Positions 9,277-56,740 of a DNA stretch of 64,000 nucleotides are shown here, piece after piece. A program made the translations under genes and the position numbers. Numbering within the stretch: the first letter of the stretch is position 1; every line of letters begins with the position of its first letter. Source of the DNA: Corallium rubrum (Eukaryota; Cnidaria; Anthozoa; Scleralcyonacea; Coralliidae); the NCBI GenBank assembly GCA_964035015.1, contig OZ035997.1:85557982-85621981 (forward strand), given 5' to 3'. The notes beneath the pieces were generated by a model. That model did no database searches and had not been told where the DNA came from. It saw only the letters and a program-made list of their open reading frames with translations.

Positions 9277-9277
9277 G

Positions 9278-11250: not shown

Positions 11251-11379
11251 TGACGTCACTTCCGGGCCCATATGTCTAGGATAATCTCGCCTGGTCAGCA
11301 AGTTCGGGTCTGGGCGGCCCCGGGCAATTAAATTAACACTTTCACAGTTTTAATAACATTTTATTTCAGCTTTTTATTA

Positions 11380-12063: not shown

Positions 12064-12193
12064 ATCATAAGGTGAGAGGTGGAACGCGACACCGATCTGT
12101 TACCCGTGTTTAATCGATTTTTAATGACTTTTTTCGCCCGAACTTGTAATATTCAAATTCGCCTTAGCAACGCTCTAACATCCCTCACAACAG

Positions 12194-12451
12194 TTATGTT
12201 AGAAATCTAATCAGTCTTTTTATCCACGAGTGTTTTACAGTTTCGTATTGCCTCAAGTCAATTCGCCTAAAATCTTTGGCAGTTCTTCTAACAGCTTGGC
12301 AAAGTGTTTCGGTATCGCAATAATCACTCACTTTCAACACTAGAGTCAAATAAGCAATAATTCTACCGAAATTCACAAGATCCATCTCTTCATAAATATT
12401 ATACAAGCTACTCGGCAAGTTATCACCGTTGATTTGGTCGATAACCCTCTC
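12194..12451 (-). pseudogene. Bcl-2-like gene, 5'-truncated by the tandem duplication
   Basis: Carries the C-terminal two thirds of the 122-codon gene, including the BH1-like VNFGRIIAYL and the WI motif, but the first 38 codons or so and the ATG are replaced at the duplication junction (12,451). No usable ATG remains upstream of the BH1 segment in frame, so it is probably not translated. Confidence 0.6.
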
Positions 12452-12487
12452 ACAGTTTTAATAACATTTTATTTCAGCTTTTTATTA

Positions 12488-13171: not shown

Positions 13172-13301
13172 ATCATAAGGTGAGAGGTGGAACGCGACAC
13201 CGATCTGTTACCCGTGTTTAATCGATTTTTAATGACTTTTTTCGCCCGAACTTGTAATATTCAAATTCGCCTTAGCAACGCTCTAACATCCCTCACAACA
13301 G

Positions 13302-13670
13302 TTATGTTAGAAATCTAATCAGTCTTTTTATCCACGAGTGTTTTACAGTTTCGTATTGCCTCAAGTCAATTCGCCTAAAATCTTTGGCAGTTCTTCTAAC
13401 AGCTTGGCAAAGTGTTTCGGTATCGCAATAATCACTCACTTTCAACACTAGAGTCAAATAAGCAATAATTCTACCGAAATTCACAAGATCCATCTCTTCA
13501 TAAATATTATACAAGCTACTCGGCAAGTTATCACCGTTGATTTGGTCGATAACCCTCTCATACAATTCATCATGCTCTCCAAAGCATCTATTCATGTAAA
13601 AACATAACGTATCTTTCTCTATCTCGATATTATTTTCCTGCAATTCAGCCCAAATTGTTTGTTCGGCCAT
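13302..13670 (-). CDS. Putative Bcl-2-like protein, right-arm copy
   Basis: 122 residues, identical in amino-acid sequence to the left-arm protein at 4,339-4,707. Same upstream 28-bp tandem array (about 13,707-13,818). Being in both terminal repeats gives the element at least two functional doses, and gene conversion between arms would keep them identical. Confidence 0.5.
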   Translation of the reverse strand: MAEQTIWAELQENNIEIEKDTLCFYMNRCFGEHDELYERVIDQINGDNLPSSLYNIYEEMDLVNFGRIIAYLTLVLKVSDYCDTETLCQAVRRTAKDFRRIDLRQYETVKHSWIKRLIRFLT

Positions 13671-32414: not shown

Positions 32415-33380
32415 ATGCATTTCTGGATTTGCACAAAGCATTTGATAGGGTACCAAGAGAAGTGCATGGTTAGGTGGGCATTGTGGAAGCTGGGTGTTGA
32501 GGAATGGCTATAGTGAAAGGCTACCGGTGATGACGATGTCTGCAAAACCAAGGATAATGGTGAAAACGAAGCATGGAAACAGTGAAGAGTTTGAGGTGAG
32601 GGTTGGAGAACATCATTCAGGGGGTCAGTCCTGAAGCCATTATTGGTCGTGATTGTGATGGTGGCACTGGCACAAGAGGTCAGAGAGGGGCTGCGATGAG
32701 AGCTGTTGTATGTAGATGATTTTGTTTTGATGGCTGAGAGCATGGAGGAACTGAAGGCAAGGATATTGAAGTGGAAGGAGTGCATGGAGGCAAAGGTGAA
32801 TATTGGCAAAACTAAGGTGATCCGGTGTCTTGGAAGTATTGTGGTGATGCTGATAGGACAGGGAAGTGGCCACGCACTGTATGGTGTTGGGAGTAATTCA
32901 ATTCGATATACAGAGTGCAGGGCCCATAAGAGATGCTCGGGTGTACAGGATTCGTTGGCTAGAGTTGATTCTTTTGTGTGCAAAGTGTGTAAGAGAGCAG
33001 GTCATGGAGAGGATAGTGGCATAGATGAAAACTTGGATTTGGAAAATGGGGTGAATTTGGAAAATGCAGGAAAGTTTTGTTATCCGTGGGGGCGGAGGAA
33101 AGTTTTGTTATCAATGGCGGCGGAGCTGGTGCAAATTCGACATCTGTGGCAAGGGTGCGTTGTGCATCAGTGGAAGAAGTATAAAGAGCAAGATTGGAGA
33201 GAATAGAGATGACGATACGATGGATGTGTGGTGTACGTACCATAGTGGGCCGGGATAGAGTGCCAAGTGTCGAGTTGAGAGAAAGAATGGGGATTGAGTT
33301 GGTGACTGATGTCGTGAGGCGGAACCGGTTGAGATGCCTGGGAAATGTATAACGGAAATATGATGTAGCAGGGTGAAAAA
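32415..33380 (+). pseudogene. RTE-like LINE reverse transcriptase remnant, copy B
   Basis: Pieces in order: FLDLHKAFD (palm motif A), then LLYVDDFVLMAESMEELKARI (the YVDD catalytic box, about 32,700-32,760), KVNIGKTKV, a Cys/His segment (SLARV...[14 protein letters not shown]), and later pieces resembling VRCAS...KK and RTHHS. Frameshifts and stops throughout. The order is that of RTE-type or related LINEs with a zinc-knuckle-like insert; the clade is uncertain. It is joined directly to the MULE-like insertion site. The long minus-strand frame opposite it is its complement. Confidence 0.7.
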
Positions 33381-36140: not shown

Positions 36141-36146
36141 GCGAAC

Positions 36147-36775
36147 TATGGCGTGCCGAACCGGACAATAATACTTGTTGAAATTATCTATGATATATTT
36201 GAAATATTTATGACTTCTAAAGAAAATCAATATGCTTGTTGCATATATAATATTATTGAATATTTATATAGCACTAAGTTTAGATTTCTATGACTTGTTC
36301 CAAATATATGACTTGTTCCAAATATATGACTTGTTCAAAATATGACTTGTTCAAAATATAGGACTTGTTCAAAATATAGGACTTGTTTCAAATATATGAC
36401 TTGTTTCAAAATATAGGACTTGTTTCAAATATAGGACTTGTTTAATATATATGACTTGTTTCAAATATAGGACTTGTTTCAAAAATAGGACTTGTTTAAA
36501 ATATATGACTTGTTTAAAATATATGACTTGTTTAAAATATATGACTTGTTTAAAGTATAGGACTTGTTTCAAATATAGGACTTGTTTAAAATATAGGACT
36601 TGTTTAAAATATATGACTTGTTTAAAGTATAGGACTTGTTTCAAATATAGGACTTGTTTAAAATATAGGACTTGTTTAAAATATATGACTTGTTTAAAGT
36701 ATAGGACTTGTTTCAAATATAGGACTTGTTTAAAATATATGACTTGTTTCAAATATAGGACTTGTTTAAAATATG
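36147..36775. repeat. Giant element left TIR: unique head plus minisatellite
   Basis: Head 36,147-36,290, then about 27 units of the type ATATAGGACTTGTTTAAA (15-20 bp, shorter at the outer end) to 36,775. Long frames on both strands here are repeat artefacts. Confidence 0.88.
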
Positions 36776-37229
36776 GGGAGGAATAAATAAGTACTCTGCC
36801 GCCGGGGGAGTCAGAAAAGCCGTAAAGCAAACAACAGATGCCGGTTCGTTTAGTGGCGGCTGTTTAACAACAAATACAAGCCACTTTTCGTAAAAATTTA
36901 TATTTTAGGCAAATCATTGAGAGGGCGTCCAAAGCATAGAAATAATTTTTCTTTTTTTAATTTAACTTTACCTTGACTAAATAAATACAAGGATAGGAAC
37001 CCCGCAACAGCTGAGGCCGATTACTGCGGACGTCCTGAATGAATGTGGGCTCCTATCTCCTGTCAGTCAAAAAATTGTCGCCACAAAATGGCGGATTTAT
37101 AAGGGAAAAATAAAATTTAATTTGGACACCTGTCACGTGACAGAGCACGCATTCTGGGGCAACACCGCTGCCAAACGTTTGCGCATGCGTGAATTCGCTA
37201 GTAAACATTGCAAGAGAAGTGCGAACTAG

Positions 37230-37802
37230 GGTCGGCGTTAGATCATATTGAGTTAACGTACAGTGACGTCACAACTTTGCTATACCTGAAGTTTTGAGAT
37301 ACCCGGGTAGTGATGTAATTGCGGGAAGATTGCGATAAATAATTCATATTAAGTATGTATTTATAATAAAGATGCAAATGACCTTATGAGCGAAATGTCA
37401 GCACGCAAGACTCGTGGCGAGACGGTGATTAGGTCAATGCAAAATGTGCACAACTTTCAATTTGATTTTCTGCTATTTATAAAAAAAGGATGTCAGGTAA
37501 AACATTTGTATTAAGTCACGATTCATATAAAAAAACAATAATCAATATCCCGATCCTCACTCATCTGGAGTCCGTCTGCGCCGTTCGTGAGGATGGCTGA
37601 GAACTCAATGTTTTATCTTGTCGTCATTATTCGATTTGTTTGTTAGTTTTTGCATCAAAAGGTGGAAGTCGTCAAAGAAGACACGCGGACGTTTATCTTG
37701 AAACTATACTGGCCTTCGCTTTTAATACACGCACGCCAACCATTTTTAAAGTTCCAAGTTGTGACGTCATGTACGTTAATTCAATACGATCTAACGCCGA
37801 CC
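37230..37802. mobile_element. 573-bp inverted-repeat element, exact 9-bp duplication
   Basis: Ends GGTCGGCGTTAGATC...GATCTAACGCCGACC, with inverted similarity continuing through GTGACGTCACAACTT (about 55 bp). Flanked by GCGAACTAG (37,221-37,229; 37,803-37,811). Non-coding. Confidence 0.88.
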
Positions 37803-38333
37803 GCGAACTAGCCGTGGCGTAACAACCAGACAGTGAAGACTGAGTAAGACTCGACTATTCATTTGTGTTTTAAAAAAAGGGTAAAGAAAATTACGAAGGG
37901 GTAAATTCAGAATATGTTACAATATTGACAAAGAAGCCATGCACAAATTACCTACCTTATCTTTTTGGTAGTATGCTTATAATTTTAACTTTTGTGTCGG
38001 ACTCTCGGACCTGTCCAAATATTTCAACGTTTTCCCGCTCTTTTTTTGAGGACGAGCTCGGACGTCGCGCATGCGCAAAATGTTTGGCAGCAGTGTCTTC
38101 TAGATCTAGGTCTATTATTTCTATGGTCCAAAGCCATCCACGTTTCATTCTATGGCCCCAGGACACGCCCGCTTTAATACATCGAATTAACAGAGAAAAT
38201 AGCTAAATTTCGCGATACGTAACCATTATCTGATGCCTTTTCACTAGCCCAGTTGTATTCCCGGTTATAAATTGTACGTATACTAAAATACCATTTTCCG
38301 GTAGCGAAATATGCACCCGATCTAACTACTAGA

Positions 38334-39114
38334 TATTATATGCACATTGAATCCCGTGAGTTACTGGAAATTGTTTAATTGTAAGATGCGCCAATTAACG
38401 CATTAAAATTCACTGCGCATCCCACAATCTTTGCCAAGAACTGTTGACCATAAATTACCAACAATATTAGGGGGGCTGGTCTGGGAGGAGGAGGGTGAAA
38501 ACCAGGGTTGCCTAGATTGGCTTTTTCGAAGCCAAATATCTCGAATTTGGCTTTTTTTTTTCTTGATTGGCTTGGGAAAAAAGTTTTGGCCTTTTTGCCT
38601 TTTTTTGGCTTTTTAAATTATTTTTTGAATTATCAGTTCATGAGTCATGACACATATTTGCGTTTTGTTACTGATAATTGAAGACTTTTTAATTAAAGTA
38701 ATATGTAAATGTAATATGTATATAATTTAGAATCTAAATTTTAGATGGTTATATTATATATTGTACAAAGTTTAGTATATGGAAATAATAAACCTCGCAG
38801 AATATTTGGCTTTTTTTTGGCTTAATTACCAAAACATTGAGTAAGTTTGGCTTTTTTTGGCTTTTTCTCAATCGTAATTATTTGGCCTATTTTGGCTTTT
38901 TTTCAAATGGTTTTTGGCCTTGAGCATGCGCAGCAGTCTAGCAACCCTGATGAAAACCCCCCGACACTTTTCAGGTTAGGGTTAGGGTTACCCCCGGGAA
39001 ATTCACATTTTTGAGATTAGAGTTCGGGGGGGGGGAGGGTTTCATTAATAACCTCTTTATTAAACAATTTCCAGTAACTTACTGGATACAATGTGTATAT
39101 AATATCTAGTAGTT
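38334..39114. mobile_element. Inverted-repeat element with nested insertion
   Basis: Ends AACTACTAGATATTATATGC... and ...TATATAATATCTAGTAGTT (about 50-bp inverted repeats through CAGTAACTTACTGGA-like sequence). Its core (GCGCATCCCACAAT..., CCCCCGGGAAAT..., GAGGGTTTCATTAATAACC) matches the element at 58,406-58,797 in the opposite orientation, though the terminal arms differ. No target duplication found. Confidence 0.65.
38503..38949. mobile_element. hAT-like MITE, 447 bp
   Basis: Ends CAGGGTTGC...GCAACCCTG. Flanks GTGAAAAC (38,495-38,502) and ATGAAAAC (38,950-38,957), 7 of 8 matching. The interior is rich in TTTGGCTTTTTTTGGC repeats. The CAGGGTTG terminus and 8-bp duplication suggest hAT. Confidence 0.75.
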
Positions 39115-39252
39115 TATTAGGATTATTTACAAGTACATGAACCCACGGTTTACGAGCGGCTTAAGGTATATACTTCATGTTACGTTAGAGTAATGTACTA
39201 TTTTTATGTGAAAAATGGCCGAGCGATTGCTAAACAACTTGATAACAGCTAA

Positions 39253-39295
39253 AGGAGGATGTTGCGCTCTTCCCAGAATGCTTTGCGACAAAACT
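39253..39295. repeat. 43-bp inverted repeat with ZNF143-like core, left
   Basis: AGGAGGATGTTGCGCTCTTC then CCAGAATGCTTTGCGACAAAA. Exact reverse complement at 40,514-40,556. Contains TTCCCAGAATGC, matching the core of the ZNF143/SBS motif. It lies about 240 bp upstream of the small gene. Confidence 0.8.
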
Positions 39296-39494
39296 ATATT
39301 ATCAAACGCTCGCGCGAAGGATGATCATTTCCAAAGATGGAGGCGTTGAGTGAACAGGGATGGCAAGCAGACGTGTTTTCTAAATCTAACTTTATTTATT
39401 TACACTGTTGTGATTTTTCAAATAAATGTGATTTCACTGTGCCTAGTTTACCGGGTTTTTTCGGCTACAGTTGCTTTATGGTCATTTTACTTTC

Positions 39495-39924
39495 ATGGAT
39501 TTGCTAGATCAAAGCCGGCGAATGTGCATGTTTCCAGTCTGTACTAGGTTGTTGAAGAAGCTTGATAATGTAAGATCTCCATGTATTATAAAGGTTATTT
39601 CAGGCGCATACTTCGAGGTAAGATTTCATATACCATTAATTTTTAGTTTTTCGTGCTTCGGCGAAGTTTGATAATTCGAAGTGTGCAAGTTTCGGCGGAT
39701 GAATGTTTTTTTTTTATCAAAAGACAGATCCTAACGAAGTTATAGATGAAAAGGACGAGAAAATGTTACTGATTTGGGATTTTATAGTGGAAACTAATAT
39801 GTCTGTGGCCGCATCTGCTTTAGCACCAGTTAACGTGGTATCTATGGTGGATACACTGTTGACTCGTATCGTCGTTTTTCGTCGTGATTCATCTAGGAAT
39901 ATCGCTATAAATATACACAAATAA
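39495..39924 (+). CDS. Two-exon small gene of the giant element (predicted)
   Basis: Exon 1 is 39,495-39,617 (ATG 39,495; MDLLDQSRRMCMF..., ends SGAYFE, donor GAG|GTAAGA). Intron of 106 bp, acceptor AAAAG|ACA at 39,723. Exon 2 is 39,724-39,924 (TDPNEVIDEKDEKMLLIWDF, then VETNMSVAASALAPVNVVSM and IVVFRRD, stop TAA). Both sites are phase 0 and join to a 107-residue protein. No family recognised; it looks mainly helical. It sits between the left TIR and the ligase gene, same strand. An in-frame upstream extension or additional exon cannot be excluded. Confidence 0.4.
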
Positions 39925-40513
39925 CAGAAAATGACCTTAGGTGCTTTCGCACAATAGCCACAATACAAACGGTAATGAATAAAAAAGGAAACGTTGTTTT
40001 GGACAAGCTTTGAATCGTTTTACTACATTACTAATAACGATGTCTTCCTCACTGGTCTTCCTCAGCCCACACAGGAAGACAACAAAAGTCAAAAAACCAA
40101 TCTGAACCGTGTTTTACGCACGAATACAAAGATAAATATCGTGAAAAATAGTAGAGGTACAATGAGGTACAATAGAAAATTTGTATTTCTTTACTATTCC
40201 TTTTTTAAAATATTTAAATATATGTCACTTTCCTGTTCTGGAAATAGTCAAAAAACGTAAACAAAGACACGTGTAGCGACAAGTTTGAAAATGACCTAAA
40301 TAGCACCATTTTTTTTGAAACATGAAAATGCTTATAAGACTAATAAACATCAGCCCAAATTAAAACAGCAAGAGAAACATAAGAACGAGTAAAAATTTCT
40401 GAGCGAGAATGACCTACCTCGAATGTTCAATTGACAGTTTTCCTGATTTTTCTGCCGGTGAAAAACAAGATATACGACAAAAATTCCGCCATATTTGTCT
40501 TCTCCAGTTCCGG

Positions 40514-40556
40514 AGTTTTGTCGCAAAGCATTCTGGGAAGAGCGCAACATCCTCCT
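40514..40556. repeat. 43-bp inverted repeat with ZNF143-like core, right
   Basis: Exact reverse complement of 39,253-39,295. Lies within the first coding stretch of the ligase gene. Confidence 0.8.
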
Positions 40557-40590
40557 CTATAACAGCTGTCACTAACTTACGAGATAATCC

Positions 40591-40860
40591 AAGGGAGCAC
40601 GTTAGAATGTGATAGTTCTCGTAAATAAAATAAACTTTACTTACCTAAAGTTGTTGACGTTTTGTGCGAGTCGCCGAGTTCGATAAAACCGCTGACGATA
40701 TGAGCCCCCGACGAGCGAGCCGACGGAGAGTATTCGGCTCGCTCGTCGGGGGCTCATACAGTATCGTCAGCGGTTTTATCGAACTGGCGACTCGCACAAA
40801 ACAGGTAAGCAAAGTTTAGTTTATTTTACAAGAACTATCATATTCTAACGTGCTCCCTTG
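40591..40860. mobile_element. 270-bp palindromic (foldback) element in the ligase gene
   Basis: Almost entirely two inverted arms (AAGGGAGCACGTTAGAAT... and ...ATTCTAACGTGCTCCCTT) around a roughly 10-bp loop near 40,720-40,730, with GC-rich inner arms GAGCCCCCGACGAGCGAGCC. Flanked by GATAATCC (40,583-40,590; 40,861-40,868). The duplicated codons GAT AAT CC are in phase on both sides. Confidence 0.9.
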
Positions 40861-42630
40861 GATAATCCCGAAGGAAATAATAGAGTTTCATCAGGTCACA
40901 ATGGCTCTGTACAACCAGCAACAACAAGTACAATATCGGAAACAACGAATGAAGCTTTACATCGACTATATCCAAGCATTAACCAACCACCAGTTGCGGG
41001 CAATGCGTCGAATGCAACGGTGACACAACTCGCAACAACAGATCGATCATTTGTGAACGCTTTGACAAGGTTCGACCCAAACACAAATTATCGTCCAAAG
41101 AAAGGGAAAAAACATCCTGCTCGTCAGAATAAGAGAAAGCACTCAGAAAGTACTCGATCGTCGAAGGCCACACTTAAGGACGTTGTTTTACTCCCAAGTC
41201 CGAAAATTAATGTTGTCCCTCGTGGCAAAAACAGGGAGGAGTTATATACGAAATGCTTCGCCGAGTCCGCTGTAGAAATTTCGGATGACATGAGCGAACA
41301 AACCATTAAGGAAAAGTTTGCTACGATCTTTCAAAGAAAGTTAAATAGTCTGCCAGAACCGAAATTCGACTTTGTCCGCGCAATTGGAAACAAGATAATA
41401 CCAGTTCCTGTTGGTCCCTTTACTGGAAAATTGCTGAAGTATATAGCTAAGCAAGGAGCAATTTACATTCGAGCGAAGAGTGATGTTGATAAAAATTGGA
41501 GGAGTTGGTTCAAGGAAGTGATTGAAGATAACCAGATTCAATTATCTTCTGATGAATCAGATGACAACGAGTTACCATGCCCATTTGGTACTGGTATCCA
41601 AAGCAACACTGCCAACAGCTGTGCCACAAGAGACACAAAGTCATCCTCCACTAATAGCCATGCCAATACTGCCAACGGTTTTCCCACAAGAGACACTGTG
41701 TCGTCCCCACCAGCTCCTATCATATCTTGCCCAACATGCTACATTTCTTCTCTGCTGACACTATACAAGAACATGCAGACCTATGTGCAGAGGAAGCAGA
41801 TGGTATACCAGCAACAAGGCGTCGATATGTCGACCTTTTAGGGGAAGATGATCAATGTCTTGAAGTGATCAATGAAAGCACCAGTGATGGTAATCAAACA
41901 GCTGAAGATTATGAAGATCTAACTAAATATGACATAGATGAATCAAATGACACAAACAATGCCAAAGAGAGACTTTCAGTTGTATTAACAGCTTTGAAAG
42001 TCAATGTGAGTATCAGAGAAAACCGTGTACATGTACGACGCAAGAAGCTTTGGAATGACTTTCTTGAAGCCAGAAAGTCTTTGAAGTGGTTTAGACCAGA
42101 TGGTGGATTGCGAGTTGTATTCATTGGTGAGCCAGCTGTAGACGGCGGGGGCCCAAGAAGAGAATTTTTTACTGGTATGTTAAATTGTTGTACATTGGAC
42201 ATATACATGTAATAGTATTTTACAGTTGGTTAACTATTATTAAAAACTTAATCATTTACAGATTGTGAAATGTCATTAGTAAGGTTAAAGATTTGCTTTA
42301 TGTTTGTCTTTAGAATGTTTGGACCAAATGAAACTTCACCTATTTTGTGAGGGGGAACCAGTGCACAGCACGTTTGCTTTGGCATCAGGAGACTTCAGAT
42401 ATGCTGGAGAACTGATGGCAAGTAGTATTATCCAAGGAGGACCAGCACCTAACTTTTTAGCCAAATGGGTTTACATGTATATAACAGGTGGATTGGACAA
42501 AGTTGAATTATGTGTGAGTCAGATAAAGGAGGAGAAACTTAAAGACATTGTTGAGAAGGTAACACGTTGCTTGAAATTGTTAATAATCTATTATCCTTTT
42601 TATTCTTTTCTAATTAATACAAAATCAATA

Positions 42631-42706
42631 TATGGATAGGCTTCCTTCAAATACAATACAATATACATGTACTGTATTGTTTTGAAGGGAGCCTATCCAT
42701 ATACTG
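42631..42706. repeat. Hairpin in ligase intron
   Basis: ATATGGATAGGCTTCCTTCAA against TTGAAGGGAGCCTATCCATAT-like complement; small foldback element. Confidence 0.7.
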
Positions 42707-45135
42707 TACATTGTACAGTAACCAAGACAGGTATTTAAAGATTCTTAAGTACTTTACTGTACATGTATATCAGTCTATTACTGATTGCCAACAGAGTAGC
42801 TATACAGTATTTATTTTCAAGTATTGTTTTCTGTAATGCACTTAATATTTATTGTTTGTGTTTTGAACAATTTTTCATCCATGATTATACTGTATGTTAT
42901 ATGTTTTTATACAATGTTACATGTATCTTTCAATTAAACTATCTAGTCAGTTTGAGGGTAGAAGATTGGGAGAGAACAAAAACTTGATGGAGGGGAGAGG
43001 AAAGATGTCTTTTGGCCCCTTCCTCATCTAAAAGTTCATAAAAGTTCATAACTCTTGTCTTTCATGAGAAAAGTAAAAACTTGACAAAGCAAAAACACTC
43101 ACAACTGATTACACATGTGTTTCACCAGCATGTGGGTTGCCAAGCTCGTATCCAGGGTCTTATCTCCACCCAACCCCCATGTTCACTGGAAAATAAGAGG
43201 GGAGATAAGAGTCTGGGTTCGAGGTTGGTCATGGTGGGTTGCAACCCTATTAACCTAGATCCTACACTCTCAGTCAGTCCAGTTGCCCACGATTAAAGAT
43301 GATGGGACACAAATGACAATTTTTCATTTATGTTTCTAATGTAGATACAAAACACAACAAGTGATGCAGAATTCCAGAATGTCCTCATGGAGGATGAAGT
43401 TTTGTCAGTTCTTGGTAGTGTTGGCTATAGAGGGATTCCATCTAAAGATACATTATCATCCAAAGAGAAGTTGATAAAGTATGTACAGTAACCTAAATAG
43501 ATATACTAACCATGGCATAAGCTTCCAAAAGTAAGCCCAGGGATTATACATGACATAGTTTGTTCAAATAATTTTTTGGCAAGCCTATATTTGTGTAGAT
43601 ATCTCTTTTTCAGGAGAGCTTGTCTATATAATTATACGTCCTAAGGATTTTGGGTGAAGGAAAATTCGAGTGAGAATATATACATTTTTTAAGACCAAAC
43701 CGGCACCAGTTGCGAAAAATGCAACTACACAGGCCTTCTGGCAGGAGTCCACTTTGGACAAGACTGGTGCGAGAGTAGCCATTGTATTATATTTATATTT
43801 TACAACCTTACATTCGCAACCTTTAGTGGTTTTAATAATGTTTCATTACAGTTTTGCCTCGTTATTAGCATTTTCTGTCCCTCCAAAATGGTCCCTCACC
43901 CCAGGCCATCACTCCTTCTTAAAGTGGCCTATTACATAATTGTAGAGGGAATTTTAAAAATTTTTAAATGTGGTGAACTAGAACGACCACAGAAAAGAGC
44001 ATGTGAATGTTGGGATAAGGCCTACTGTATTCTGACAGTCTGAAAAAAATGTTATTGTTTTAAAGGTACTTTGTTCGGATTTAGCAAAATTGATTTGATC
44101 AATATTATTTCATGTGATTTGTGGTCATGTACATGTTATTCTTTATCTCTAGATCAATTTGTATAAAGTCATGTATAGAGCCAAAAATTCCTATGATTAA
44201 AGAGCTTGAACAAGGAATGAATCTTTTTGGTGTGTTAAATGCAGTAAGACAACAACCAAGGCTGTTTGAAGGAGTATTTGTGGAGAGTGGTCAATTTGAC
44301 ATCACTTTGGATGACCTATTAGATTCTCTTGAAGTTTGTTATAGCCAATCACAATTTCTTAAAGAAGCAGAAGAAGATGTCTTTAAATACTTCTCTGACA
44401 CCATGCAAAGCATAGCACACTCAGGTACATGGATGCCACCACTAGTTTTTGTGACTACCGCTGACCTGTCAGCGGTAGCCATAATGTCGGCGTGATCTTG
44501 CTTGAGTGTCTTGGACATCACTTACGTCATACTCGTGCAGCCATCGCCAGGTATTCGACGCCATCGCTATATAGTCGAGAAGATCCCCAGGTATTCGGGA
44601 AGTACTCGAGTTGTTTTCGTGGCCTCGCGGAGAATAAACTAAAGTGAATCTCGTCTTTGCATTTTGGTTGCTCTCTCGATGACAGTTTTGATTTTTGAAA
44701 GTGTTAATTATTACTTTGCAAATCTTTTCTTCTTGGTACGGTTTCTGTCCGCATTGATCAGTTTATACAAGGTAAGAAATAGTTTCAAAACTGTGACGTT
44801 GTTTATCTTATATACTATGTACTATACATGTATACTATATACAAAATCTATAAGTACTTGATCGGAAACAAATTCAATATCTCAAAGCCAACCTCGTATT
44901 TCGGTACTTATAGCAGTACTAGAAATATTCAGCTTATAAAGTTTGCTAGAAGTTGGGCCTTCAACCTTCTTTTATCGAAGAAATTGATATATACCTAAAT
45001 TTAGTTTTGAATTGTGTGTTGTGCTCACTGGTCAGTGACACATGTTTATACTGCATGTACAGTATATACATTTATATATCATACACCAGTGCATACACTA
45101 AGAGTGAGAAGTGTGTTTTAAACAACTTCGAGCTA

Positions 45136-45278
45136 CAATCTTGGACAATAATGTTGTAACACCCCCTCCCCCCGATTCAATGTTGACCGAAATGAAACAA
45201 TGTTGGAATGGAGTTTCATATAACAACATTGAATCGGGGGGAGGGGTTGACTGTTACAACTATTATTGTCCAAGATTG
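45136..45278. mobile_element. 143-bp hairpin MITE, copy 1
   Basis: CAATCTTGGACAATAATGTT... to ...ATTATTGTCCAAGATTG, with an inner inverted pair around CCCCCTCCCCCCGATTCAAT. Identical by eye to 46,475-46,617. Confidence 0.85.
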
Positions 45279-45608
45279 TCTAAGACCCAGTTTTCCTAAT
45301 TTTGATAAAACAACTAGTTTTTTTATGTTACGGTAGTGATGCAGCATTAAAAGATTAGTTTGCATCAAATTTTCAATATCGAGTATTAAATACCCTCCAT
45401 AGTTTGGACATCCAAATTATAAATAACATAATCTCTTCCATGGGCAAAAGAATAACAAATATTAGGGAAAGGAAAGGCCAGAGATTGAAGTATTGAAATG
45501 TAGAGTAACACTAAGACGATTGGACATTAAACTATATCTTAAAATTATGTCGGTATTCATTGTGTTTTTATAATTTATATAATAAATAGTTATCTGAACC
45601 ATTCACCA

Positions 45609-45718
45609 ACGGTCTACCACGGTCTACCACGGTCTACCACTACAATATAACAAAATTAATATACATGTAAATCCCTTTGAAACCCATGGTAGACCGTGGT
45701 AGACCGTGGTAGACCGTT
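45609..45718. repeat. Inverted trimer of a 10-bp unit
   Basis: GGTCTACCAC three times (45,611-45,640) faces its complement three times (GGTAGACCGT-type units, 45,688-45,717) across a 47-bp loop. Confidence 0.85.
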
Positions 45719-46474
45719 GCATAAGGCGGTATATAGTTGCGCAGGGGAAATTAAACGAACTGCTTATGAATAAATGTGGCTTTACAAGCATTCTATAAAA
45801 GAGGCTTAAGCTTTACACTTATTTATTGAATGATTTCAACCTCTTCCAGATTTCGCTTCGTCTAAACCGCGTGCGGCAATACGATAATTTCTCAAATTTC
45901 AACGACAAGGTAGCGGCGGGTCTTCTTAGTTTTTGAAGCTTATTAATCTTAATATAAAAATAATTATATTCCCATTAACAATTCATTGATAGTATTAGCT
46001 GGGGAAAAAATTTTTAAACTTAAATAAAACGTTCTATTATGAAATGAAATACACCGTACGTGCTTAGTTTTCCCCAATCATCACAATGTCAGATATAGAT
46101 TCAGTAAAGCGGGCTCGGATATCAATCACCCAACGGCTGAAATATGAGCGTCATCTCTAAACAATAGTAATATTATTAATACATCTCTCTTTCAACAGTT
46201 ATCCTATCCAAGTTACCAACTCTCACACTTTCTCTCGCAATACTAGTGACGTAGATATTATTGAGTGACAAAGAAAGGGCTTCAGGCAGAGAAATATGGC
46301 GGAGAAGCGTGCGTAGTAGAGCGCAATCTATATATACATTTTTAAATGCAAATATCTTTCTACTAATTGCACGAAACAGTCTCAAACTTCACCATTGTTT
46401 ATTGACTTTAATTTACAAATAGAAATCATATTTTAGCTGTATTTTATACAATATTAAGAAAAATCAGTCAAGGA

Positions 46475-46617
46475 CAATCTTGGACAATAATGTTGTAACA
46501 CCCCCTCCCCCCGATTCAATGTTGACCGAAATGAAACAATGTTGGAATGGAGTTTCATATAACAACATTGAATCGGGGGGAGGGGTTGACTGTTACAACT
46601 ATTATTGTCCAAGATTG
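46475..46617. mobile_element. 143-bp hairpin MITE, copy 2
   Basis: Second copy in the same orientation 1.3 kb away, same length, no difference seen by eye. Confidence 0.85.
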
Positions 46618-46769
46618 TAGGTGTTTTGATATTAGATCAAACACAACTTTGTTTCATAATCAAACATATCAGGAAATGAATTGTTTGATCACATATCAAA
46701 CCTTCTTCTCGCTTATGATTTTCCTATCTGTTTGGTTTACGAATTATTAATGAGTTTGAGAAGTAATAT

Positions 46770-47026
46770 TTGAACAACGAGAGCGAGTGTTTCACCGGGA
46801 TATCCAAACACGAGAAAACAATGTATGAAAACACGAGGCCGAAGGCCGAGTGTTTTTGTTAATTGTTTTTGTTAATTGTTTTCGAGTGTTTGGATATCCC
46901 GGTGGGACACGAGCTCGAGTTGTTTAAATAGCTTCTCAAATGAACACAAGTATAGTTTGCATAGGTAATTAGGATATTTGAGGAAGATCACTAGTGATCT
47001 TCCTCAAATATCCTAATTACGTATGC
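46770..47026. repeat. Two adjacent foldbacks in ligase intron
   Basis: First: GTGTTTCACCGGGATATCCA (46,788 on) against TTTGGATATCCCGGTGGGAC (46,889 on). Second: a near-perfect palindrome 46,959-47,026 centred on ATCACTAGTGAT. Confidence 0.75.
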
Positions 47027-47207
47027 CGATCAAATGTATTGTAGTGTTCTGAGACACCGTGTTTGACTTAGTTATCCAAATGCAATCCCGTGACTAGATG
47101 GGTCTTTATTATTGGATAATTAGCTCATGAATTATTAATGAGTTTGAGAAGTATATATCACAGTGCCCTGTATTTACACTATATACATTGTATATAAGAA
47201 ATTTGTG

Positions 47208-47515
47208 CTATGTGGTGTTGGTGGCATAGTGGTTAGTGCACGTGCCTTTCACCTCTGTGAGCTGGCTTCAATACCTGCACGGTGCAGTTATCTGATTAAA
47301 ATAATTCACCTTGGCCACATGCGAGAAGAGTGCTTCCAGTTTGACTCTACCAAACATGCACCACAGGTTTCCTCCGGGTACTCAGGTTTCCTCCTGTAGT
47401 AACACTGGACCAATGAGGGTGAGCCCTTACTGGTCCTCTAGAGAGAACAGTTTAGATATAACTGATAGAGTTATCCAGTATAAATAAGGTTAGTTTAATT
47501 TAGTTTAAACAAAAT
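47208..47515 (+). mobile_element. tRNA-derived SINE
   Basis: Pol III A box TGGCATAGTGG (47,222-47,232) and a degenerate B box GCTTCAATACC (about 47,274-47,284) at tRNA-like spacing. A body with repeated GGTTTCCTCCGGGTACTCAG / GGTTTCCTCCTG motifs follows, then a GTTTAATTTAGTTTA tail. No coding. Confidence 0.65.
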
Positions 47516-47984
47516 ATGTTGGCTGTTACATAAACATTACAAAACCTTGACTTGGTGCTTTGTTTACTTGTTTTAGGTGTTGTTCAATATCTTCTATAAT
47601 GAAATTTAAAAAAAAAAGTTTGTGGGCACAAGAGCTGCTACAGTGATCTGACCACAGAATAGTAGATACACCAGAAGTCTGACTCTTGTGAAAGTACTGA
47701 AACAGTCTATAATCTACGTGCCACGTATATTTTGATAAATTGTTGTAAAGCTATTGTGAACTGTTGGGAAACTTAACGCCTTGAATATGTTGAAAGCCTT
47801 GAAATGAAGAAATATATCTGTTGAAACTACAATACTGAGTATTGTTGTACTGTGTTATTTAAAATACTACCAGAATCACAAAATATCAGTGACGTGCATT
47901 ACGCTTGAATGCCACTGACAGCATATTTATGGCAGGTAAAATGTTGTTTTGGAACACAATGTTGATTATCTGGAGTGATTAATT

Positions 47985-48310
47985 CTTTTCAAGGCGATAA
48001 TGTATATAGATTATTTTTGTGGAAACACCATGAAAATTATTTATTTGCTAACAGTTTTGGCCTGAGTCAACAGGCTGAAAGCTTAGCAAATAAATATTTT
48101 ACGGTGTTTCCACAAAAATAATCTACATGTATATGATCTGGGGTGAGTTGTACAAAGCCAAGATAGCTTATCTAGTTGATAAGTTCTAGCTAAAGAACAG
48201 CACTAATCATGCTTTGAACAACCTAATGTAAAATTTTATCCACTGAATAGTTCTGTATCTGATAGTGCTGTTCAGTGGATAAAAGTTAAATTGGGTTGTT
48301 CAAAGCACCA
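47985..48310. repeat. Two hairpin elements before the last ligase exon
   Basis: AGATTATTTTTGTGGAAACACC (48,009 on) against GGTGTTTCCACAAAAATAATCT (48,102 on), and GCTTTGAACAACC / GGTTGTTCAAAGC with an inner ATCCACTGAA pair at about 48,212-48,306. Confidence 0.75.
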
Positions 48311-49193
48311 CTAGAGTGGTTCTCTAGCTAGGATTTATCCACCATTTTTTTGTGTATGTCTGTGCTTTTCACACATTTTCATGCATTTCAAGTCTATATC
48401 TCGTTCTGTACTTAACAGCGGTAGTCACATGTACGCATTGCGTACCTATTTTTAACACATGTAGTTTAAATGACCCAAACCTAAAGTGAATCAAATCAGA
48501 TGACAGATTTAAATTCATATCAGATCTTTGCACCATCATGTATAAATTAATATCTTCTACAGGTATGTTAGACATTGCTATTCAGATCTACAGTATGTGA
48601 TCCTTTACAATGCCAACTATTTTTTTCTATCTTGTAGAAACCCTGAGGTAACCTTGAAAGATTTCTTGAAGTTTGTAACTGGTACAAACCAAATGCCTCC
48701 ATTAGGCCTTCCCAAGAAAATATCAGTATGTTTCCAGCATGGATGTCATCCTGGTTGCAAATGCAGACCCAAGGCTTCAACATGTTCACTGACCTTAACC
48801 TTACCAATCCATGCTGGTAATGCTGTTAACATGCAAGAGTTACTCAAATCTGCCCTGACTGAGTGTTATGGATTTGGAAATGTCTGAACCAGTCTGGAAT
48901 ATATGGCAGTCAAATGAACTAAGACTTTAGAGTTACGTGTTGGTTACTTAAAAAGGTTACAGACACCTATAAAATCACTAAAATGTTATGGCTTTTTAAA
49001 GTCATCATTATGGTGCAGTTGAGTTTAGGATTTGGAAACTTTTGTAAATTTTCATTTAAATGTGCTTTTTCATATTGTTATACACTGTACAAGTACCTGG
49101 TTTTTGCTCTACGATAACATAAAAATAAACTGGGATTTCTATAAGGGGAGCCCTTTATAGCACCCTCTTGTATGTGCCTGTTGACTACAGTAC

Positions 49194-52100
49194 TTATACA
49201 CCATTCTTGCTTGTGTTACTGTTCAAATCACTGTTCTCCCCTAATAAAATGTTCCTCACATTGCTGTTAACTTGTTCATACAAGGTAATTCCATGGTTGC
49301 CATCATTGGCTAAAGGATTAACTAAGTTCACTAGAAAATTATATGCATTATCTGAAAGCTCGACTGTTGACCTTGGTACCTGAACGTCATTGCGTCTTTG
49401 GAGGTCAGGAAAGCGCCCATCATCATCAATTCCATAAAGCAGGAAGTTGGTGGTGTTTGGGTCTAACAGTTCCCTTACTGTAGTGTAGTCAGAGTTTGCA
49501 AACTGATAAAATCCTTCAGTCCACTTTTGTAAAGGGGTTCGGTTTCCCTCACTAGACAATGGATGGTTGTTCCATTGGCTCACAAAATGATCTAATGCCT
49601 TGTTTATGCGGGGAAGATAGACATACTGCAAAGCATAAGCATCAATCTCATCATCTGGATCAAGTACTTGTTGAGATTCAAGGTAATGAAAGAGATTCTT
49701 ATAATAGGTTAGAACAAAGGTGAACACATCACGCCACAAACGTTCTATTCTTTGATTATGCACTGACTGGCCTGTAATCACGGTGGTTTGCCAATGGACC
49801 ATATCGGTGTAGCATTTCTCTTGCAACAGCAACATTCTCTGTTCCGTGATCTGTTCGGATTCTTCTTGGATAATGAGTAGCTGTCTGAAAAAGGTGCAAC
49901 ACTGTGGATGACAGATTGTTTGAAGATGCTTTAAGGAAAACAACTGTCCTGGAGAACCCATCAATTCCTCCATGAATTACAAATCGCCACCTTATCAATT
50001 TATGGTTTCCATCCAAGTGCCTACAATGTATGTCATTAATTTCATAAGTTAAGTCATTAAATACAAGTTTGTGAATAGTTGAAAACGTAGATTTGAAACC
50101 CAAAAATGTACACATGTGCATACATACAAAACACATTCTGAGCATAACAAACTATTAAATTAAAGATAAAGAATTCTAATGGTAACAGCATATTCCAAGA
50201 TGGCTCCCAGTTATCATTCAATGTGTAACTTAATCTGAAATATTCCAGTGACCCGCATTTTTATTACAAATTTCCTTCATATAAAATTTGTAGATAGAGT
50301 AACATTTCAGTCTTCAACAAATATTTAACAGTTATACCATGAGCTCGAGTTGTATATGAGCTCATAGCCAACGAGGCGCTTCGCCGAGTTGGCTGGCTAT
50401 TAGTTCGTATACAACGAGAGCGAATGGTATAACTGTTTTATTATATAGCCAAGCACTGTACTAGAGGCAAAATTACAGCGAAATGTTTGAAACAACAAAC
50501 TTCCGGCATAGGCAACTAATACTTCCGCCATGCGTAATGATACATTCACATAGAGTTTCTCGCTGAGCTGTTCGGTAAACAGCTTCGAAATGTTGTATAA
50601 ATGTTGCTCGAGAGGCAAAAAATGTGTTAAACAGATCAACAAAAAAGATTAAAAGGTACCTTTATGAAGTCAAAAGGTGGGTCAGTTGCTTATATTAGCA
50701 TTTCTGTCGTGAAAAAGGTTTTGATTTCATGCAAAAATGAAACTGAAACACCTTCGGCAGTGAAACTAAATTACTTAGTTGGTTGTTTTTGAAAAAGAAC
50801 ATGCTTTTTACTGCTCCAAATGCTTATCTAAATCAAAAGTCTCTTTACTGGTGATCTCCTACGAAACGTGTATTGTAAGCTTGATTTTAACCGCGAGTTT
50901 CTTTGTTTAGCAACAAATTAATATCAACCCGTTAATTTAGTCGGGTTTTTGAAGTAAAATTAAAAGACGTAATTTTTAGGTGAATTTTACAATTTGACAT
51001 GCTAAATTGTGTATTTGTTAATGTATTATTACACAATTTTTTTTTATATACATTGGTTTGGGGGTGTTGATGTTTCTCTGTATAAAAATCCGTCAATTTC
51101 AACTCTTTTCAGCAGTTTAAAAAAACATGCCGCCATCTTGTTTTCCTCTACTAGTAGGATATGAGCTGATAGCCTGGTAGTAGGGAACCAATCAGATTAT
51201 GCAAAAGCTCATATCCGATAGCATGCTATATAATAATAAGTGTTTCTTGGAGTGCTTGGAGATATCCCTCCATCACAGAATATACTCCTGACTTTAACAA
51301 CTTATGCATTTATACGAACAACTTATGCATTTACACTCCTATTAAGTTATCTTTTCATACTGCTTTCCCAAGCCATATTTTGAGATTATGCATGCATTAT
51401 ATATATACTTCTTCAACTGTCTATTCTACTTTTTGCTTCTGAAATATGTTTTTTTCCTGATGATTTTTCCTGGTTGTGTACTGAGTAACCCCTCTCTTTT
51501 CAAGTAAGTTCTGCACTGCATTATTAAAATAGAAATAAAAGAAACCTATAAGGGCTACTTTTGGCTCTTACAGATAACATTAATGTCACCAAGTGAAGTT
51601 CAGTGGCAATTTTAAAATTCCCATCTGATTCGCACACTTGGTGAAACTATATGGCTATCAGCTGTAACAAATTGTAGTATACTAGAATGCATTGTGCACT
51701 ACATTGTACTATACTACAGCTTTTTTCTGTTGGTAGCCGTAGTGCGCAATGCATTGTAGTACTACACTTTGTTATGGCTGGTAGCCGTAGTGCAAATTAT
51801 TTGTGTATTTTTTTCTTCTATTCTACTGATTCTGGAGGTTTCCGATGACATTACCAAATATTTGCGACCAAATGGCTAAAATAATTACTTACGATTTCTA
51901 GCTTTTACGCGAGATAAACTGCACTCGAAACAGCCTCAAGCTAGTTTAGTATTGTGTTCAGTATTGCGTATTTCTAGAGAAGTCAAGGCCACCACCAGCT
52001 GATGACTGAGCAAAAAGCAACTTATTGCGGTTCCTAGCTGAGACCAAGTGTGTGAATTGGTGAAATTTTGAGGTTTAGTTGACCAAATAATGAATAAGCC

Positions 52101-52881
52101 TTTGTTCATATTAGCCACCCAGCTTAGGGATATGTGCCAGAGCCCAATGCCCCAAATAGTGAACTCACCATAAGGAATTAGGTGTAGGAACATTATACAC
52201 CCTTCTATAAACAACAGTATGTCGTCTGAGTGCTCGACTAACTGGATCAACACGGCCAATTGATTCCCGAACTCTTCTTCTTTGGACAATCAGTCCTCTG
52301 GCTCTGATACCTCCAACCACCATTCTCTCACCGGAGTTAGGGGAAACTTGCAAAATTGACCGAACTATTTCATCTAGTTGATCGTCTAAAACTTGAGAAA
52401 AATTTCCAAGGCTACCCAATACCATTTCATAGTCAGCTCTTCTGCGTCTGATTGTTCTTTCAGAAACACAGAGCATGTTAGCAATAGCTGACCAGGAAAA
52501 CCCTAAACCTCGTAATCCTTCTAATTGTTCCTTGGGAATCAACAGTTTTGGGCGTCCTCTTTGGACTTCGTCACCACCATCTACATTCGGACACATGTAA
52601 TGTAGCTCGTCGGTTTCGTCGAATCTATGAAAGCGTTCCTCAAAACGATTAACCAGATTCTGGAATTCCACTGCCACTTGAATAGCATTGTCAACGATGT
52701 CCGGTAACCACATGTTTTCTTGTAAAACAAGTAGTAGTGTTCCGATGAATTGTTGGGAACGACGGCAAAGTGTTTCAGCAATTGCAATGTCGGAAACAAA
52801 CAAGTTTCGCTGGGTCTCTCTGAACAGATCCTGGCCGGCTTGTAAAACGTACAAGAAACGTTGGAGCGAGTCATCGTCCAT
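49194..52881 (-). pseudogene. DDE integrase-like transposase, two exons, one frameshift
   Basis: Exon 1 (52,881 to 52,169): ATG MDDDSLQRFL, helical N-terminus, then a recombinase-type HTH (LIPKEQLEGLRGLGF, SWSAIANMLCVSERTIRRRR) and a basic region, ending VPTPNSL. Donor TG|GTGAGT at 52,168. Intron 52,168-50,021. Exon 2 from 50,020 resumes exactly (W completed, then [13 protein letters not shown]). Catalytic core: D in GGIDGFSR, D in RTDHGTEN, E in [14 protein letters not shown] frameshift lies between HRYG and [10 protein letters not shown] (about 49,770-49,800). The gene ends at 49,194, about 300 bp from the ligase gene's stop, tail to tail. It would cut and join the element's ends. Possibly of the IS3EU group; label uncertain. 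Confidence 0.75.
50328..50440. repeat. Hairpin in integrase intron
   Basis: AACAGTTATACCATGAGCTC... against ...GAGCGAATGGTATAACTGTT, with an inner GCCAACGAGGCGCTTCGCCGAG stem shortened here to its ends (GCCAAC/GTTGGC). Confidence 0.7.
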
Positions 52882-52977
52882 GACAGTCCGAAATAGAGCT
52901 GTTTAATTTAGTATGTGTTTGGCGGCCATCTTGGCTCAGTACCTCACAAATGGCATGGGTACGAGGTTGTAGTTGCA

Positions 52978-53771
52978 ATTTTAAACAAGTCCTATTATTT
53001 TTAACAAGTCCTATATTTTAAACAAATCCTATATTTTAAACAAGTCCTATTATTTTTAACAAGTCCTATATTTTAAACAAGTCCTATATTTTAAAGAAGT
53101 CCTATATTTTGAACAAGTCCTATTTTTGAAACAAGTCCTATATTTTAAACAAGTCCTATTATTTTTAACAAGTCCTATATTTTAAACAAGTCCTATATTT
53201 TAAACAAGTCCTATATTTTAAACAAGTCATATATTTTAAACAAATCATATTATTTTAAACAAGTCCTATATTTTAAACAAGTCCTATATTTTAAACAAGT
53301 CCTATTATTTTAAACAAGTCCTATATTTGAAACAAGTTCTATATTTTGAAACAAGTCATATATTTGAAACAAGTCCTATATTTTGAACAAGTCCTATATT
53401 TTGAAACAAGTCCTATATTTGAAACAAGTCATATATTTTAAACCACTCATATATTTGGAACAAGTCATATATTTGCAACAAGTCCTATATATTTGGAACA
53501 AGTCCTATATATTTGGAACAAGTCCTATATATTTGGAACAAGTCCTATATATTTGGAACAAGTCCTATATATTTGGAACAAGTCCTATATATTTGGAACA
53601 AGTCCTATAAATCTGAGTGGACAAGTATTAATTATCTAAACTTAGTGCTATATAAATATTCATAATATTATATATGCAACAAGCATATTGATTTTCTTTA
53701 GAAGTCATAAATATTTCAAATATATCATAGATAATTTCAACAAGTATTATTGTCCGGTTCGGCACGCCATA
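52978..53771. repeat. Giant element right TIR: minisatellite plus unique head
   Basis: Array 52,978-53,615 of AACAAGTCCTATATTTTA-type units, including six perfect 20-bp units with ATATATTTGG at about 53,482-53,610, then the head to 53,771. Reverse orientation to the left TIR and about 150 bp longer through array expansion. Confidence 0.88.
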
Positions 53772-53777
53772 GCGAAC

Positions 53778-55278: not shown

Positions 55279-55525
55279 AGGTTCTCTCGCCGCTTTCAGC
55301 ATTTCGGGGGGGAGCGGGCGGCGTAGGACCTCTGGGACCAGGGTAGAGATATACTGGACTGGAACACTGGCCATATCGTTTTGAAGTTTTGTTCAAGCTC
55401 AAGGTAGAAATCTAGTCGACAAGGGAATTGATAAGGTTAAGAGATTTCTATTATTTTGATTGGAAAACGTCACATAACTTTAAAAGGATTTCCTACGTGA
55501 CCTTAAAAGAATTTCCTACTTCCAT

Positions 55526-56740
55526 ATGGAAAAACGTGCCCGCAAAGAGAAACCATACAAGTGTGATGTTTGTGACAAAACATTCTCTAAGTCATCTACG
55601 TTATTATGTCATAAAAGAACACATACTGGAGAGAAACCATTAAAATGTGATGTCTGTGACAAGACATTTTCCTGGTCGAGTAACTTAAGAACTCATGAAA
55701 GGACACATGCTGGAGAGAAACCATTCAAATGCGATGTCTGTGACAAGGCATTTTGTCACCCAACTACCTTACAAAATCATAAAAGAACACATACTGGAGA
55801 GAAACCATTCAAATGTGATGTCTGTGACAAGACATTCTCCCAGACAGGTCACTTAAGATCTCATAAAAGGACACATACTGGAGAGAAACCATTCAAATGT
55901 GATGTCTGTGACAAGACATTTTCCCAGTCATGCAACTTAAGATCTCATAAAAGAACACATACTGGAGAGAAACTATTCAAATGTGATGTCTGTGACAAGA
56001 CATTCTCCCAGATAGGTCACTTAGGATCTCATAAAAGGACACATACTGGAGAGAAACCATTCAAATGTGATGTCTGTGACAAGACATTCTCCCAGACAAG
56101 TCACTTAGGATCTCATAAAAGGACACATACTGGAGAGAAACCATTCAAATGTGATGTCTGTGACAAGACATTCTCCCAGACAGGTCACTTAGGATCTCAT
56201 AAAAGGACACATACTGGAGAGAAACCATATAATTGTGATATATGTAACAAGACATTCTCCATGCCAAGTAGCTTACGATGTCATCAGAGATGTCATACTG
56301 GAGAGAAACCATTCAAATGTGATGTCTGTGACAAGACATTCTCCCTGACAGGTCACTTAGTATATCATAAAAGAACACATACTGGAGAGAAACCATTCAA
56401 ATGTGATGTCTGTGACAAGACATTCTCCCAGACAAGTCACTTAGGATCTCATAAAAGGACACATACTGGAGAGAAACCATTCAAATGTGATGTCTGTGAC
56501 AAAGCATTTACCCAATTAAGTAGCTTACAACAACACCATTTGAGAACTCATACAAAAGAAAAACCTTTCAAATGTAATTTCTGCAAAGGGACATTTGGTC
56601 TTGAAATATTTGATCAACATCTGTTGGCCCATGAGCTGGAAGCCACAGAACCAACTGGGATGGACTACATATGTTTCCAATGTGATGCCAGATTTGACTT
56701 AGTCAGCAATTTAGTAAGTCATGTGACCAATGTTCATTAA
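55526..56740 (+). CDS. C2H2 zinc-finger protein, 14 finger units
   Basis: 404 residues from ATG 55,526 (MEKRARKEKPYKCDVC) to TAA 56,738-56,740, apparently a single coding exon. Eleven canonical fingers with TGEKPF linkers, one with a wider His pair (HHLRTH), and two looser terminal units (KCNFCKGTF..., ICFQCDARF...). Fingertip residues vary (QTGHL, QTSHL, QSCNL, WSSNL, HPTTL, MPSSL) while the 84-bp frame is almost constant, so fingers have been duplicated within the gene. No effector domain is attached. Expected nuclear DNA-binding protein. The upstream 100 bp is shared with the gene at 63,111. This is the only complete, undamaged family member in the window. Confidence 0.9.
   Translation: MEKRARKEKPYKCDVCDKTFSKSSTLLCHKRTHTGEKPLKCDVCDKTFSWSSNLRTHERTHAGEKPFKCDVCDKAFCHPTTLQNHKRTHTGEKPFKCDVCDKTFSQTGHLRSHKRTHTGEKPFKCDVCDKTFSQSCNLRSHKRTHTGEKLFKCDVCDKTFSQIGHLGSHKRTHTGEKPFKCDVCDKTFSQTSHLGSHKRTHTGEKPFKCDVCDKTFSQTGHLGSHKRTHTGEKPYNCDICNKTFSMPSSLRCHQRCHTGEKPFKCDVCDKTFSLTGHLVYHKRTHTGEKPFKCDVCDKTFSQTSHLGSHKRTHTGEKPFKCDVCDKAFTQLSSLQQHHLRTHTKEKPFKCNFCKGTFGLEIFDQHLLAHELEATEPTGMDYICFQCDARFDLVSNLVSHVTNVH

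Follow-up and report, generated by a model that had tools for sequence, protein, structure and literature searches.

Introduction

When a gene for a HECT ubiquitin ligase and a gene for an integrase-class transposase lie together between long inverted ends, do they form a single mobile element, and is the ligase a lasting component of that element or something it picked up once? This question is raised by a stretch of 64,000 nucleotides from Corallium rubrum (contig OZ035997.1, positions 85,557,982 to 85,621,981; hereafter, the window), which holds a DNA transposon carrying both genes. Our analyses lead us to conclude, with high confidence, that this element is a two-gene transposon of the IS3EU/GingerRoot kind and that the HECT ligase is resident in these transposon families and not one-off cargo. 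An earlier annotation of the window (the initial annotation) had taken the ligase for cargo, and this interpretation was not borne out. Convergent pairs of these genes recur in diverged transposon families, and for eight families the HECT and transposase trees have one and the same topology; a resident gene therefore fits the data better than a single capture.

The Window Element and Its Two Genes

The initial annotation had described a real transposon with inverted ends, the hexamer GCGAAC at both flanks, long terminal inverted repeats, and a DDE integrase-like gene convergent with a HECT gene, and each of these features was confirmed (Table 1). The ends lie exactly at positions 36147 and 53771, the two arms show perfect inverted complementarity over 111 nt, and the HECT gene on the plus strand faces the transposase gene on the minus strand. 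The core of the minus-strand gene matches the DDE integrase domain rva_4 (PF24764) when the frames of the window are compared with Pfam. In a sister copy of the element, C82, in which the exons of both genes are open, the transposase is encoded by a two-exon gene with a GT-AG intron; its product exceeds the rva_4 cut-off (E 5.7e-80) and carries the DDE residues D241, D298, and E333. Pfam reported no zinc-binding integrase domain for this protein at E-values up to 1, and no OTU or Ulp1 domain.

The frames of the window that were compared with Pfam gave no HECT score, and the last exon of the gene itself passes the cut-off for PF00632 (C1:85606632-85606862). The strung exons of the C82 gene, mapped without one stretch that is found in the full-length relative P0005, match PF00632 with an E-value of 3.5e-13 and a score of 50.3 bits (cut-off, 23.9). 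The TC of the C-lobe aligns with the catalytic TC of UBE3A; it is unchanged in all five of the C-lobes that were aligned, and the pattern is matched in 9 of 12 relatives. On the basis of these motifs, the transposon HECT protein is a putative E3 ligase for which ubiquitin transfer is predicted. A profile of its zinc finger made from 12 relatives matches RAP80 (E 0.0014), WRNIP1 (E 0.023), and RAD18 (E 0.067).

The gene content of the element also bears on whether it is of the Polinton/Maverick type, as the combination of an integrase-class enzyme with a 6-bp duplication, which Polintons also make, might suggest. However, all of the frames of at least 120 amino acids in the window element come from its subterminal arrays or from the two genes, with no DNA polymerase B or capsid among them, and its termini are of the form TA..TA, and we regard a Polinton/Maverick-like identity as extremely improbable.

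A Five-Copy Family with Recent Movement

The genome that was searched comprises 474 Mb in 312 contigs. The first 204 bp of the window element have ten full-length matches in it, which pair into five elements, viz. the window copy (C1 or C1w, 17.6 kb), C82 (10.0 kb), C39 (20.8 kb), C8 (35.6 kb), and C103 (9.1 kb). Whether the same ends bracket both genes elsewhere was a question left by the initial annotation, and the HECT and transposase genes were found together in all five copies, each of which has TATGG..CCATA termini. Four of the copies are flanked by exact duplications (GCGAAC, GTTTTC, CAATGA, and TAATTC), and in the fifth (C8) an additional G separates the left end, at C8:15575026, from the hexamer CACGCG. 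An extra G is likewise seen at the left end of C37 (C37:14666647), an element of a different family described below, as if a donor base had been carried along in both cases. Among the matches that were scored, all those with at least 94% identity to the HECT or the transposase of C82 lie inside these five copies.

The copies C39 and C1w are identical at 13,344 of 13,412 aligned bases and they occupy different sites with different duplications and flanks, and the family has therefore moved recently. This movement was apparently later than the insertions of 1.6 and 4.0 kb that are partly common to the two copies. The C82 copy splits another HECT-like gene collinearly (C82:578800-590800; L009, L010), the interrupted frame of which has eight stops. 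The right flank of C103 (L019) adjoins an rva_4 gene. As two of the five copies lie in or beside genes of related transposons, a preference for related elements, or a clustering with them, is possible.

Diverged Families Carrying the Same Gene Pair

A genome query with residues 1-463 of the C82 ligase gave 95 matches (the best 92 of 336 candidates were scored), and those outside the five copies are 26-55% identical to it. Nine diverged loci were taken from these matches, seven of them for a nearby rva_4 match and two (C13 and C22) for their high score. Both genes are present and convergent in all nine, so that the recurrence of integrase and HECT genes between related ends, which the initial annotation had raised, extends beyond the family of the window element. 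Six of the nine loci (C1:38.88 Mb, C82:1.18 Mb, C39:10.32 Mb, C195, C203, and C161) have inverted TATGG or TATGA ends and exact 6-bp duplications. The element at C37 has ACTGTT on either side with one extra G, that at C13 has the ends without a duplication, and the ends of C22 lie outside the stretch that was taken. The TATGA ends are found in one family (C1:38.88 Mb and C13) and the other ends are TATGG or TACGG.

Two TACGG-ended elements (C8:15597621-15608469 and C161:9718-26308; L016-L017, L033-L034) are nested inside TATGG-ended ones. They are flanked by the exact duplications TAATAC and CCTTTG and they also carry convergent rva_4 and HECT genes, with rva_4 genes that are distant (27-30% identity). 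In the nested element of C161 (C161n), a zinc-ribbon-like finger stands at the N-terminus of the HECT protein as well as of the transposase; it is under the Pfam cut-offs in each and would fit a shared partner. Over 16 elements, the 6-bp duplication is exact in 12, accompanied by the extra G in two (C8 and C37), absent from one (C13), and outside the stretch taken in one (C22). The end alignments extend over at least 270 bp in all 11 of the elements that were compared.

Since seven of the diverged loci were chosen for proximity of the two genes, a comparison of genome-wide lists provides a less biased count. The rva_4 list was made from the best 150 of 1351 candidates and ten of 91 later matches, merged to 156 places. 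The HECT lists hold the best 129 of 515, 92 of 336, and 60 of 728 candidates of the individual searches, with host HECT genes included; matches within 8 kb were merged to give a set of 200 loci in which the host HECT genes were kept. A first count with a limit of 15 kb found an rva_4 neighbour at 19 of 84 HECT loci (best of each list). In a second count with a limit of 5 kb, 31 of 131 HECT places (best 129 of 515 candidates) had an rva_4 neighbour, with 0.46 expected, and the pair was convergent in all 31. The merged count at 5 kb found neighbours at 37 of the 200 HECT loci (best of each list), with 0.86 expected, and 35 of these pairs are convergent. HECT and integrase genes are both multi-copy families in this genome, and one could thus suppose that the pairs are a chance neighbourhood, or an assembly artefact, of two gene families. 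Against this stand the excess of neighbours and their orientation in the merged count, as well as the 12 of 16 elements that have both inverted ends and exact duplications, and its probability is in our view negligible.

Relatives in Other Species

Relatives of the ligase were found in Dendronephthya, Actinia, Paramuricea, Acropora, Desmophyllum, Xenia, Montipora, and Stylophora; the fish Gouania and Lingula yielded weak matches. The C-lobe motif, C-x3-C[KR]CRPTASTC, is unchanged or almost unchanged in the HECT genes of Actinia, Paramuricea, Dendronephthya, and Acropora, which also encode a UBZ-like finger and were deposited as plain genes. The relatives from Actinia, Paramuricea, and Montipora are named "G2/M phase-specific E3 ubiquitin-protein ligase-like," and those from Dendronephthya and Acropora are named "uncharacterized." The start of the Acropora relative is similar to the zinc-ribbon-like finger, again under the Pfam cut-off. 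HECT genes that have been counted as cnidarian host families may in part be genes of transposons, which is of importance for annotation.

In the eukprot data, the HECT protein P0139 corresponds to gene11469-12665_t and the transposase P0065 to gene11470-12666_t; the best local match of P0139 in Corallium rubrum is 57% identical (best 60 of 728 candidates). For the HECT protein P0002 and the transposase P0018 the longest contig listed is in each case 10,864 bases, which suggests that they lie on one contig. A scan of viral contigs with the transposase relative P0018 found six stretches that matched a pattern, and none of these was confirmed.

Co-Divergence and Constraint

Maximum-likelihood trees were constructed for the HECT and transposase proteins of eight families (C82, C1-38, C82-1.18, C39-10, C195, C203, C37, and C22), with the HECT of C39-10 represented by 322 of 698 positions only. 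The two trees have an identical topology, with supports of 90-100 for HECT and 78-100 for the transposase. The pairwise distances of the two proteins are correlated (0.935), and none of 10,080 sampled permutations reaches this value. Transposase identities between families are as low as 43%, and HECT is the more diverged protein in all 28 family pairs. Nonsynonymous divergence (dN) between families is 0.39-0.58 for HECT, with synonymous divergence (dS) saturated in five of five pairs, and 0.20-0.42 for the transposase, with dS saturated in four of five pairs; codons for these estimates were mapped piecewise onto C82, and exon edges are possibly misaligned.

These results are pertinent to the proposal that the ligase is passive cargo, i.e., a captured host HECT gene with no role for the element. 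In its favour are the broken genes of the window copy and a within-family HECT dN/dS that falls only moderately short of 1 in six pairs and exceeds 1 in another. However, the same gene is found in the same place and orientation in all nine diverged loci, its catalytic motif is kept, its tree is congruent with that of the transposase, and its dN between families remains at the values given above while dS is saturated. We therefore consider passive cargo very unlikely.

A number of observations weigh against our interpretation of the ligase as a resident gene with a part in the life of the element, or narrow what can be drawn from it. Proximity to an rva_4 match was the ground for choosing seven of the nine diverged loci. 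In the 15-kb count, the nearest rva_4 gene is convergent in 15 of the 19 cases and not in the other 4, and two of the 37 neighbours in the merged count are divergent. Among the matches listed, 117 of the 156 rva_4 places have no HECT match within 5 kb and 163 of the 200 HECT loci have no rva_4 match within 5 kb; because the lists hold the best matches of each search and include host HECT genes, the listed rva_4 places without a HECT match are not to be equated with elements that lack HECT. The HECT zinc finger is under the Pfam cut-off for zf_UBZ, and zf_UBZ also grazes an ordinary C2H2 array. Six within-family pairs have a HECT dN/dS of 0.30-0.81 and another pair, with seven changes, has a value of 2.35, and constraint at this level is weak or mixed. 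Because physical linkage alone would yield matching trees, the congruence of the two trees speaks for long residence and not for function. P0139 and P0065 look like neighbouring genes in another species, as judged by their gene numbers. Lastly, the membership of the window element in the IS3EU/GingerRoot superfamily, which is well supported, was assigned by the published features of these elements.

Possible Role of the Ligase

By analogy with known integrase-class transposases, the rva_4 transposase would bind the ends of the element, and perhaps also the subterminal repeats of about 18 bp, and it would join the ends to target DNA that is cut with a 6-bp stagger. The HECT ligase would work with the transposase by ubiquitinating either the strand-transfer complex or chromatin and repair proteins in its vicinity, upon which the complex would be released and the gaps repaired, and the UBZ-like finger would serve to bring the ligase to ubiquitin that is already present at damaged DNA. 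That HECT acts with the transposase on the strand-transfer complex, or on chromatin and repair proteins near it, is put forward tentatively, as the likeliest of the roles considered and yet a proposal somewhat more apt to fail than to hold. A broader proposal, viz. that these elements represent an ancient and obligate two-gene lineage in which the UBZ-HECT protein is core to transposition, that extends across the TATGG and TACGG classes and across cnidarian species, and that is the source of many of the genes annotated as G2/M E3 ligases, falls just short of an even chance.

The arrangement of the elements may be related to how the two genes are expressed and the ends recognized. In five elements of the compact families (C1-38, C13, C82-1.18, C161, and C37), the starts of the two genes lie some 0.3-0.45 kb inward of the ends, and in other elements up to about 1 kb, with the HECT gene of the window family farther away; given these short distances, the inverted ends may drive the expression of both genes. 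The sequences of the subterminal arrays differ between families and their period is mostly 17-21 bp (C39-10 is without a clear array), a spacing that would fit binding of a protein at about every second helical turn.

The ligase could instead be an accessory against silencing, which would mark host silencing or restriction proteins. A precedent is provided by fungal IS3EU elements, the TET/JBP proteins of which are proposed to help in escaping methylation-based silencing (PMC12730594), and the greater divergence of HECT than of the transposase in all of the family pairs is of a kind often seen in host-facing proteins. On the other hand, the long co-divergence of HECT with the transposase and the zinc-ribbon-like start of the C161n proteins fit a role in transposition equally well or better, and we consider a counter-silencing function unlikely, although it is the main alternative.

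Damage and Other Features of the Window

Both genes of the window copy are broken relative to C82. An insertion splits the HECT gene close to its start, a frameshift affects the zinc finger of the same gene, and the core of the transposase gene is frameshifted as well. Because the window copy carries extra segments of about 0.45, 1.6, 4.0, and 0.9 kb in comparison to C82, the native length of the element is probably 9-10 kb. The length of 17.6 kb in the initial annotation is thus correct for the span of this copy but not for the native element, as the sister copies C103 and C82 measure 9.1 and 10.0 kb. The 4-kb insertion is likely another DNA transposon.

Table 1. Features of the transposon in the window (positions are those of the window).
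Feature	Position	Strand	Characteristics and evidence
Target-site duplication, left	36141..36146	.	GCGAAC; sequence letters
DNA transposon	36147..53771		Termini TATGG..CCATA; ends TATGGCGTGCC / GGCACGCCATA; letters at exact coordinates
Left terminal inverted repeat	36147..36256	+	Begins TATGGCGTGCCG; 100% complementary arm; genome matches
Left subterminal tandem array	36292..36774	.	18-bp unit, 26.9 copies; inward of left arm
Segment of ~0.45 kb	38504..38948	.	At alignment break versus sister copies
HECT gene, initial ~17 codons	roughly 39211-39250	+	Separated from remainder by insertion
Secondary insertion, 1.6 kb	39251..40860	.	Near HECT start; largely common to copy C39
HECT gene, first long exon	40861..42197	+	N-terminal region, UBZ-like C2HC finger, HECT start; frameshift near 41740
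HECT gene, piece 2	42343..42561	+	Exon mapping
HECT gene, piece 3	44175..44444	+	Exon mapping
Secondary insertion, 4.0 kb	44451..48448	.	Own inverted ends GTGACTACC; just past HECT piece 3; partly common to C39
HECT gene, last exon	48576..48884	+	C-lobe, catalytic cysteine motif CKCRPxxSTC; exon mapping, alignment, Pfam
Transposase exon 2	49245..50019	-	DDE core and C-terminus; frameshift near 49785
Secondary insertion, 0.9 kb	50326..51231	.	Inside transposase intron
Transposase exon 1	52168..52881	-	Helix-turn-helix-like region; frames, Pfam, mapping
Right subterminal tandem array	52978..53609	.	18-bp unit, 34.1 copies; opposite orientation to left array
Right terminal inverted repeat	53662..53771	-	100% complementary arm; genome matches
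Target-site duplication, right	53772..53777	.	GCGAAC; sequence letters

Three other features were observed in the window outside the element. A frame of 418 amino acids consisting of C2H2 zinc fingers lies at 55484-56740, 1.7 kb beyond the right end. At about 4507-13502 there are inverted repeats that include perfect segments of 24 nt and for which more than one pairing is possible, and another inverted-repeat element is perhaps located there. A frame at 32700-33206 contains YVDD, which we take to be reminiscent of a retrotransposon reverse transcriptase; comparison of this frame with Pfam gave no reverse transcriptase match.

Comparison with Known Systems

IS3EU elements are described as having TA..TA termini, usually 6-bp duplications, and no HHCC motif, and those of rust fungi as having TAYGG..CCRTA ends and inverted repeats of more than 30 bp (PMC10045372; PMC12730594). 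The elements described here share with IS3EU/GingerRoot the termini, the 6-bp duplications, the inverted repeats of more than 30 bp, and an integrase-like DDE transposase without the HHCC finger. In the TET-bearing fungal IS3EU elements, the TET/JBP gene lies between the transposase gene and an opposed alpha-kinase gene (PMC12730594), and a second enzyme gene that is opposed to the transposase is thus common to both. In contrast, the second gene of the present elements is a HECT ligase and not an alpha-kinase or TET/JBP, and one family ends in TATGA.

The initial annotation had known of no described transposon with this content. This holds for the HECT partner, for which no description was found, but not for the kind of element, whose termini and duplications are those of IS3EU/GingerRoot. 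Neither HECT nor ubiquitin came up when PMC10045372 and PMC12730594 were searched for these terms; HECT is absent from the main text of PMC4255032, occurs in other matters in PMC8195603 and PMC5560861, and is absent from PMC9587614, which mentions IS3EU once. No description of HECT together with IS3EU, or of a transposon-borne HECT, was found in the open-access literature, and the subscription literature or Repbase may contain one. The new part is hence the HECT ligase as a recurring partner; the superfamily is already known.

Two other systems invite comparison. RAG-like transposons are similar in having two convergent genes per transposon (PMC7204232). Their transposase, however, is unrelated to that of the present elements. 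RAG-like transposons make 5-bp duplications, and a RING ligase is found inside RAG1 itself.

Several transposons have deubiquitinase-type domains; in Ginger1 elements the transposase carries C-terminal OTU or Ulp1 protease domains, which led to the proposal of a function for the ubiquitin pathway in transposition (PMC2836005). Both Ginger1 and the present elements have an integrase-class transposase that is tied to the ubiquitin/SUMO pathway, but in Ginger1 a deconjugating protease is fused to the transposase whereas here a conjugating ligase is encoded by a separate gene. An identity of the window element with Ginger1 is ruled out by the duplications, which are 4 bp in Ginger1 and 6 bp here, and by the lack of an OTU or Ulp1 domain in the C82 transposase. 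A transposon-resident E3 ligase would represent the enzyme complementary to the OTU and Ulp1 proteases of Ginger1, and it would make the idea that ubiquitin takes part in transposition directly testable.

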